Origin: a virus
Virus record (IMG/VR): IMGVR_UViG_3300024346_000039
Location: 1-64,000 of that record
Strand: one strand, 5' to 3'
DNA length: 64,000 nucleotides
The notes beneath the pieces are model-generated. The model was given only the letters and a program-made list of their open reading frames with translations. It was not told the DNA's origin and searched no databases. A program made the position numbers and the translations under genes. Positions 443 to 61,772 of this stretch are shown here, in pieces. The first letter of the stretch is position 1. The number at the start of each line of letters is the position of its first letter.

Positions 443-461
443 GGGGTTTTTATTTTTCCAG

Positions 462-490
462 CAAAAAGAAACCCCCTCTTTCGAGGGGGC
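462..490 (-). terminator. Rho-independent terminator of the 505-879 gene
   Basis: Minus-strand stem of 7 bp (472-478 with 483-489, TTTC loop on plus), followed by a T-rich tract (A run at 463-467 on plus). It lies directly downstream of the stop codon at 505. Confidence 0.88.
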
Positions 491-504
491 TTCCTTTCCA
501 GACT

Positions 505-879
505 TTAGAAGTGTGGGTCGAAGTATTCCATTCGCACACCGACTAGGAGAACACCAGAATTAGTTGCGCCTTCACGCATATAGCGTCCGTCTTTGCGGAG
601 TGTGTAGCGTTCTTGCTTTGCATTTGGGTTTGTAGTGAATTCGTAATCTTGGCTCTCTGAATAGTAACCATTTGAATCCACACGCTTTGCGATATCGCGG
701 GTAGCAATTACTGCCTTTACTTGTCCAGCCTTCTTTCCTGTTTTGTAGGTTTCAATTCCTACAACTGTGTATGCAAGTCGGTCAGACCAGCCAATCTGTG
801 TTGCGCCCATACCGATTTCAATTTCGGTAAGGGACTTGCTGTTGCCAGCAAGTAGATTATGAAATGAGCCGTAAGACAT
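505..879 (-). CDS. Hypothetical protein (124 aa), orphan early-type gene
   Basis: Unrecognised soluble protein, beta-rich by eye, with no cysteines and no membrane segment. An in-frame GTG exists at 924, but it falls on the predicted transcription start of P2. The ATG at 879 has a strong AAGGGGAG ribosome site about 10 nt upstream, so I chose 879. The protein then begins MSYGSFHNLL. An in-frame ATG at 888 is too close to that site. The gene is flanked by its own promoter (932-960) and terminator (462-490). Confidence 0.75.
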   Translation of the reverse strand: MSYGSFHNLLAGNSKSLTEIEIGMGATQIGWSDRLAYTVVGIETYKTGKKAGQVKAVIATRDIAKRVDSNGYYSESQDYEFTTNPNAKQERYTLRKDGRYMREGATNSGVLLVGVRMEYFDPHF

Positions 880-931: not shown

Positions 932-960
932 ATAATAAGGGTTGGCTACGGATAACGCAA
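932..960 (-). promoter_or_regulatory. Promoter P2 for the 505-879 gene
   Basis: Minus strand: -35 TTGCGT (955-960), 17 bp spacer, -10 TATTAT (932-937), predicted start near 925. The sequence ACTTGCRYTATCCGTA overlapping the -35 is shared with P3. Confidence 0.7.
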
Positions 961-991: not shown

Positions 992-1007
992 TGTGATTTG
1001 CACCACA
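992..1007. promoter_or_regulatory. CRP/GlxR-type operator O2
   Basis: TGTGA-TTTGCA-CCACA differs from a perfect TGTGA-N6-TCACA palindrome at one base. Its centre is about 74 bp upstream of the predicted P2 start, the same place as O1 before P1 and O3 before P3. Confidence 0.65.
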
Positions 1008-1041: not shown

Positions 1042-1080
1042 AAGTTATCCACAGGTTTATCCACAGGGTGTGGATAACTT
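1042..1080. promoter_or_regulatory. Cluster of three DnaA boxes (candidate replication origin)
   Basis: Three perfect TTATCCACA nonamers lie within 33 bp: forward at 1045-1053 and 1057-1065, reverse at 1069-1077. The outer two form a 12 bp perfect inverted repeat (1042-1053 against 1069-1080) around the middle box. TTATCCACA is the strong bacterial DnaA box. No gene overlaps the site, which lies between the O2 operator and the next terminator. Whether it is an origin, a DnaA-titration site or a DnaA-regulated switch cannot be told from sequence. Confidence 0.8.
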
Positions 1081-1106: not shown

Positions 1107-1127
1107 CCTTCTTTTATTTTTCCTGCA

Positions 1128-1152
1128 AAAGAAAACCCCCCTTGCGGGGGGC
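1128..1152 (-). terminator. Rho-independent terminator of the 1167-1388 gene
   Basis: Minus-strand stem of six G:C pairs (1136-1141 with 1146-1151, loop TTGC on plus), followed by a T-rich tract (A-rich at 1127-1135 on plus), just past the stop at 1167. Confidence 0.85.
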
Positions 1153-1166
1153 TTTCCTTTCCAGAC

Positions 1167-1388
1167 TTATTCTTCCCCGATTTGCTTCAGGAAGTCATTG
1201 ACAATATCTAGAGCCTTTTCACGACCCTTTAGACCCTTACCTGTGTCAATTCCTGTTAGACGCTTGAACGCCTTTAGGCTTGACTCTGCGGTAAGTTGCA
1301 TACGCAACTCTGTGCGGATTTCAAGTTCTAGACCCTGCTTCAATACGAAGAGTTGCATTGGGCTGACTTGGATTTCAACTGCGGACAT
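1167..1388 (-). CDS. Small hypothetical protein (73 aa), orphan early-type gene
   Basis: No family recognised. The sequence looks largely helical, with an acidic C-terminus ending GEE and no cysteines or membrane segments. The ATG at 1388 is preceded by an AAAGGGGG ribosome site. The gene has its own promoter P3, operator O3 and terminator, like its neighbours. Confidence 0.75.
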   Translation of the reverse strand: MSAVEIQVSPMQLFVLKQGLELEIRTELRMQLTAESSLKAFKRLTGIDTGKGLKGREKALDIVNDFLKQIGEE

Positions 1389-2254: not shown

Positions 2255-2349
2255 ATAACTTTTTGTTATATACATAAAATAAAATATATATGCCCTTGCC
2301 TTTTTATAACAAAAAGTTATAAGACAAGTTTTTGATAACAAAATGTTAT
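2255..2349. promoter_or_regulatory. Triple operator ATAAC-N5-GTTAT
   Basis: Three perfect palindromes of the form ATAAC-N5-GTTAT lie at 2255-2269, 2306-2320 (extended to 7 bp arms, 2304-2322) and 2335-2349. The surrounding sequence is very AT-rich and lies between the leftward and rightward transcription units. Three identical half-site pairs in 95 bp strongly suggest binding of a dimeric phage or host regulator. Confidence 0.65.
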
Positions 2350-60860: not shown

Positions 60861-61772
60861 CTAGTTAGTAATGAGCGATGTGCCCAGAAGCCCTAATTGA
60901 CCTGCTGCAATAAACTTTGGTATTCCTGTTGGAAAGCCATAAGCAATACTATTTATGTTAGAGCCTGAAAAACTAGAATCTCCTGCTGTCCAACTTATAG
61001 CATCTGTTGAATAAATTGCTGTTCCATTCGCACCACCAATAAAAAATGTTGCTGACCCGAAATCTATGTCTCTAAGAGTGAGGGGACCTGCTGGCTGCGT
61101 GCGTTGGGTCCAAATACTTCCATCTAACGATGTTGCAATTTTTCCATCTCCACCGCAAGCAACATAATAACCAAGCCCATATGAAATAGAGTAAATAATG
61201 CTTGTAGTAAAACTACTTGTCCGTTGAGTCCAAGAAATTCCATCCGAAGAAGTTGCTAATTTTCCAGCAGCCCCGACTGCAACATACAAAGACCCTGAAT
61301 ATGTAACACCATAAATAATTGACGTGCCAAAACTACTTGTTCTTTGAGTCCAGGAAATTCCATCTACTGAGGTTGCTAATTTTCCAGAGGCTCCTACAGC
61401 AACAAAAAGAGAGCCAGAATAAATTACATTAAGAATAATTGTTGTACCAAAACTACTTGTCCGTTGAGTCCAATTAATTCCATCTGGAGAAGTTGCTAGT
61501 TTTCCAGACGCACCGACTGCCACATAAACTCCAGCACCATATGCAACATCCCAGATGGTAGTTGTACCAAAACTACTTGTCCGTTGAGTCCAAAAAATTG
61601 CTTCGGGAGATGTTGCTAATTTTCCTGAGTTTCCAACGGCAATAAATTGACCATTTAAAAATTTTACTGATGATATTTCAGTAGTGCCAAAACTACTTGT
61701 TTGAAGAGTAAATGCTGATGGAGCATTAAGTCGAACACGAGATGACCAAATTCCATGAAGGGCTTTAAGCAT
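60861..61772 (-). CDS. Beta-propeller adhesin of seven 40-aa repeats (303 aa)
   Basis: The sequence consists of about seven repeats of 40 residues with core WTQRTSSFGTTxI...YxxGxYVAVGASGKLATSPDGI, like BNR/sialidase propeller blades. The DNA repeats with an exact 120 bp period. The protein is probably a closed seven-bladed propeller at a fibre tip that binds glycans; no enzyme residues are evident. It lies between two collagen-like fibres. Confidence 0.8.
   Translation of the reverse strand: MLKALHGIWSSRVRLNAPSAFTLQTSSFGTTEISSVKFLNGQFIAVGNSGKLATSPEAIFWTQRTSSFGTTTIWDVAYGAGVYVAVGASGKLATSPDGINWTQRTSSFGTTIILNVIYSGSLFVAVGASGKLATSVDGISWTQRTSSFGTSIIYGVTYSGSLYVAVGAAGKLATSSDGISWTQRTSSFTTSIIYSISYGLGYYVACGGDGKIATSLDGSIWTQRTQPAGPLTLRDIDFGSATFFIGGANGTAIYSTDAISWTAGDSSFSGSNINSIAYGFPTGIPKFIAAGQLGLLGTSLITN
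60961..61740 (-). repeat. 120 bp tandem repeats inside the propeller gene
   Basis: CCAAAACTACTTGT-type sequences recur at 61207, 61327, 61447, 61567 and 61687 (all plus-strand coordinates, period 120 bp), with more diverged copies 120 and 240 bp further left. The array is coding and in frame. Confidence 0.8.

Follow-up and report, generated by a model that had tools for sequence, protein, structure and literature searches.

Clusters of DnaA boxes, promoters regulated by DnaA and DnaA boxes in phage DNA are all known kinds of element. DnaA is an established transcription factor, and in several bacteria it controls its own gene (PMC8203912); footprinting has also located DnaA sites close to a lambda promoter (PMC3985674). 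The lambda pR/pO sites offer a precedent for host DnaA acting on phage transcription, although they are only similar to the consensus, are placed downstream of pO and are linked to ori-lambda (PMC3985674). The E. coli titration locus datA gathers DnaA boxes outside oriC, two of them consensus and four with one misfit, together with an IHF site (PMC5835720), and the injection-stop region of phage T5 contains DnaA boxes along with inverted repeats, linked there to two-step DNA transfer (PMC13250531).

Here we describe a DnaA-box array at the left end of a 75,586-base phage record, of which bases 1–64000 form the stretch analysed, called the window below. Like the lambda sites it would place host DnaA near a phage promoter; like datA it clusters consensus boxes outside oriC, but much more tightly; and like the T5 region it combines DnaA boxes with inverted repeats in phage DNA, although this phage is not known to transfer its DNA in two steps. 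To our knowledge, two points are new: the pairing of such an array with a CRP-like site inside a phage gene cassette that can be excised, and the match of its geometry to chromosomal dnaA promoters.

The phage nature of the record follows from its recognisable portal, major head, tape measure, DNA polymerase, SNF2-type helicase, Prim-Pol/D5 primase-helicase and terminase genes. Its nearest named portal relatives are phages of Actinomycetota, lake phage DSL-LC01 first, and judging from these sequences its hosts are probably freshwater actinobacteria. Direct repeats of 120 bp lie at 61099–61642 of the window, in a tail-gene region where neighbouring genes are collagen-like. At its right end (L004) the record stops within a short tandem repeat, which is probably an assembly break.

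Three exact DnaA boxes in 33 bp

Exact matching bore out the arrangement described in an earlier note, with two forward boxes and one reverse box at a start-to-start step of 12 bp within a perfect outer inverted repeat (Table 1). Three exact copies of TTATCCACA occupy 33 bp, a DnaA-box cluster by the sequence criterion, and the outer arms AAGTTATCCACA (1042–1053) and TGTGGATAACTT (1069–1080) are perfectly complementary over 12 bp. No further perfect TTATCCACA was found outside the array in the whole 75,586-base record. The same note held that such a cluster is very unlikely by chance. The rarity of the box agrees with this, since shuffled 64-kb windows contain a mean of 0.53 perfect copies, and we estimate the chance of three boxes in 33 bp at around 1e-8; that figure presumes independent units, but the box units are in part a tandem repeat (AGGTTTATCCACAGG), so the assumption of independence fails. 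Conservation in relatives is therefore a better test of the boxes than chance. A DnaA-binding site is the natural reading of the array from its sequence.

Table 1 Features of the array and of the cassette around gene B (positions in the window)
Feature	Positions	Strand	Remarks
Whole array, with 12-bp outer inverted repeat AAGTTATCCACA/TGTGGATAACTT	1042–1080		from the sequence
DnaA box 1, TTATCCACA	1045–1053	+	exact match; invariant in five sequences
DnaA box 2 (middle)	1057–1065	+	exact match; 12-bp unit deleted in relative L008/G004 (alignment)
DnaA box 3 (inverted)	1069–1077	-	exact match
CRP/GlxR-like palindrome TGTGGTGCAAATCACA, read on the minus strand	992–1007		37 bp from the array
Predicted gene B promoter	932–960	-	-35 TTGCGT at 960–955, 17 bp, -10 TATTAT at 937–932
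Gene B	508–879	-	124 aa; weak match to phrog_33370, a PHROG without assigned function
Terminator repeat, family D1, downstream of gene B	449–505		second copy; one excision end point
Terminator repeat unit, family D1, downstream of gene C	1112–1168		excision end point in L184
Gene C	1170–1388	-	73 aa; next gene upstream, running up to the terminator in front of the array; conserved in L007, L008 and L184

The array precedes a CRP-like site and the predicted gene B promoter

The leftmost 1.8 kb of the window is filled by small minus-strand genes, most with a promoter and terminator of their own. Read along the minus strand, the order is gene C, terminator, box array, 37 bp, palindrome, 31 bp, -35, 17 bp, -10 and gene B, whose product had no Pfam match even at E 0.1. 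A strict promoter scan did not list the promoters of these small genes, which thus rest on pattern and conservation.

The palindrome ahead of gene B fits the GlxR consensus, TGTGA-N6-TCACA (PMC7999487), with one deviation. Further CRP/GlxR-like palindromes lie at 395–410 and 1475–1490, and genes A and C have similar palindromes but no boxes. Most palindromes in the record and its relatives stand 30–32 or 19–22 bp before a -35 element, distances about one helical turn apart, and this spacing supports a CRP-family activator acting at these sites. Neither PF08299 nor PF13545 was matched in four related records searched for a CRP or DnaA protein of the phage. Before the gene D promoter, at 1870–1895, the window carries a perfect 16-bp palindrome, GTATGACTGGTCATAC, with a CRP-like site in its place in relatives G004 and L184.

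A second gene shows a related layout. In four genomes (G001, G003, G004 and G005), one box lies 11 bp before a palindrome, TGTGATGTAACTCACA, and the promoter of another small early-type gene, so that the order of box, palindrome and promoter occurs twice.

The array is conserved and lost together with gene B

Gene B is carried by five contigs, the window and four others, and the array is present in 5/5. Two of these (L005 and L006) are 98–99.7% identical to the window and two (L007 and L008) about 91–92% identical, so the independent evidence rests on L007, L008 and L184, a relative described below. Across the five aligned sequences no box carries a substitution, with the left flank variable at 13/58 columns. 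The stretch from array to palindrome is variable at only 1/37 columns in the same alignment, which indicates that the whole control region is conserved, not the boxes alone. In L008 (G004) exactly 12 bp are missing, corresponding to the middle box and its spacer, and the outer palindrome is retained. An absence of the boxes from related phages, along with a skew shift elsewhere, had been named in the earlier note as grounds for doubt; the relatives with gene B have kept the boxes. Among 80 portal-bearing loci (855 kb), many of which stop short of the array region, the array was found only in L186 and L187, known relatives of L007 and L008, and we rejected the idea that it is a trait of the whole portal family.

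The reciprocal case is provided by L184 (G005), whose portal is 98% identical in protein. This relative has genes A, C and D but lacks gene B, and its 36-kb record, covering part of that genome, lacks the array as well; its three perfect boxes are all single. At the joint (3560–3660 of L184), the control region of gene A is continued by the terminator found behind gene B in the window, after which comes the end of gene C. Terminator repeats flank the small genes, and L184 looks as if it were the product expected of recombination between the two 57-bp terminator repeats of Table 1. Array and gene B are thus found together in five contigs and are both absent from L184, as would fit boxes that lie in a promoter control region and are inherited with the gene. 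Because the array recurs with gene B and is lost with it, we assign it to the control region of cassette B.

Similar arrays in other phages and at chromosomal dnaA promoters

Matches to the strict pattern TTATCCACAGNTTTATCCACAGNNTGTGGATAA were found in 13 viral stretches, mostly in unrelated surroundings. Six genome contigs have it too, of which one is from Magnetococcales and the other five are Rubrobacter-type or otherwise actinobacterial. A looser search for boxes at 12/12 spacing recovered 25/396 genomes of one actinobacterial phylum sample (21 exact and 4 with one mismatch), with 0 for the reversed control. We checked 20 actinobacterial loci, and every one maps to the divergent rpmH/dnaA-operon promoter region, beside rpmH and rnpA, with dnaA itself inside the fetched stretch in 16/20. 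The arrays of Rubrobacter-type Actinomycetota (L167–L170, L172, L276–L277 and L279–L296) resemble that of the phage: a promoter region holds two direct boxes and an inverted third, each 12 bp from the next. They are chromosomal, however, have unrelated flanks and sit about 55–80 bp from the start codon that opens the dnaA operon. No exact copy of the phage array, GTT/AAC ends included, was found in the genome collection searched.

Among phages, members of the Stanwilliamsviridae that infect Streptomyces (LukeCage, Karimac, Forrest, Annadreamy and Samisti12) carry two inverted perfect boxes 23–28 bp apart in non-coding DNA. Some have a middle box, which is degenerate in LukeCage and Karimac, and the third box is degenerate in Annadreamy. 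These arrays differ from the present one in belonging to another phage family, and several of them lie in long intergenic gaps. We found no paper in the literature searched that names DnaA boxes in Streptomyces phages. Similar arrays occur in further named phages, the Microbacterium phages Magritte and Squash and the Lactococcus phage AM4.

Another layout was seen in seven low-GC freshwater phage contigs (L026, L033, L046, L065, L084, L095 and L109), which are unrelated to the record. Here TTGACA is followed by TGTGGATAA in the spacer between -35 and -10, a -10-like hexamer and a nearby start codon; further upstream, at 33, 44 or 55 bp, lies a pair of boxes. These are apparent DnaA-box promoters, as judged from their motifs.

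Discussion

The position and inheritance of the array suggest a part in the control of gene B, and we put at about even the chance that host DnaA binds it as an upstream regulator of that gene. In such a scheme, host DnaA would occupy the first two boxes in a head-to-tail arrangement and box 3 in inverted orientation, some 120–150 bp upstream of the predicted transcription start. A sigma-70-like promoter would then be modulated by DnaA together with a CRP/GlxR-type regulator bound between array and promoter, tying gene B expression to the DnaA level and nutritional state of the host. Occupancy of the sites by DnaA and by the regulator is inferred, as are the sign of any effect on the promoter and the role of gene B. 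The scheme is supported by the order in which boxes lie upstream of a palindrome, and the palindrome upstream of a -35 element, at several early-type genes, and by the identical box geometry at chromosomal dnaA promoters. Against it, 120–150 bp from the start site is a long distance for direct action, boxes occur at only two of at least five palindrome-bearing promoters, the distant gene B homologues have none, and Streptomyces phage arrays of similar type lie in long gaps with no obvious promoter.

The array could instead be a decoy, with multiplying phage DNA absorbing host DnaA and slowing host initiation, and with no specific effect on gene B. This would account for consensus boxes in a phage, for the extra perfect boxes that stand singly in the relatives' early region and for the repetition of such arrays in non-coding gaps of unrelated phages. 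We nevertheless consider it rather unlikely as the explanation of the array, given that three to six boxes per genome are few and that a decoy has no need of a fixed order relative to a CRP-like site and promoter, or of being inherited together with gene B. A decoy role can also coexist with regulation of gene B.

The earlier note had proposed that host DnaA might start phage replication at this site, and had suggested looking for a GC-skew minimum near 1 kb. The raw cumulative minimum of the record falls at about 7.3 kb, and we rejected the skew minimum as evidence of an origin, the coding-strand-corrected skew being without signal. After correction for gene strand, no replication-strand (two-arc) skew rose above a permutation null in either the record or the 127-kb relative G004; with only 15 permutations per test, this is weak evidence, an absence of evidence rather than proof. 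The array might still form part of a DnaA-dependent origin, main or accessory, in that three perfect boxes are clustered, T-rich DNA adjoins them, the direction of the genes changes nearby and Rubrobacter-type genomes have a similar array about 2.3–2.9 kb from an oriC-like box cluster. The T-rich stretch, however, is also found next to gene A's control region, which has no boxes, and between this stretch and box 3 the alignment shows no conserved sequence. Furthermore, DSL-LC01 has no perfect box at all, and the Prim-Pol/D5 primase-helicase and DNA polymerase of the phage are encoded far from the array, which sits upstream of a CRP-like site and promoter and not beside either gene. The lack of a skew signal, the deletion variant L184 and the position upstream of a promoter, away from replication genes, thus weaken the case for an origin; we think one unlikely here, and a start of replication by host DnaA at the array is not supported.

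Separately, an AT-rich gap of 700 bp in which gene direction changes holds three copies of the palindrome ATAACNNNNNGTTAT (window 2255–2349), with two copies in the same gap of G003 and of G004 and one in that of L184; these could be operators or an origin element.

Finally, it is improbable that the inverted repeat acts as RNA, in the shape of a hairpin or an additional terminator downstream of gene C, or as the operator of another protein, such as a phage repressor whose site looks like DnaA boxes. In favour of these roles, boxes 2 and 3 can pair into a 9-bp stem closed by a 3-base loop, with T residues next on the plus strand, and L008 keeps the palindrome despite losing the middle box. Against them, gene C already has a strong terminator behind it, the middle box is a direct repeat superfluous for a hairpin, and the 9-mer is the exact DnaA consensus in all copies and recurs in the same array at dnaA promoters.

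Overall, the array looks more like a switch on gene B than a start of phage replication. On a wider scale, we tentatively raise the possibility, doubtful as it is, that unrelated phage lines independently took up the box geometry of chromosomal dnaA promoters, which would let early genes sense host DnaA and, in this phage, also the cAMP/GlxR state. The present case is a warning that clusters of DnaA boxes in phages should not be called origins without mapping, and the recurring 33-bp array makes a simple test object. If DnaA controls early phage genes outside lambda, then a phage has a means of sensing its host's replication state.
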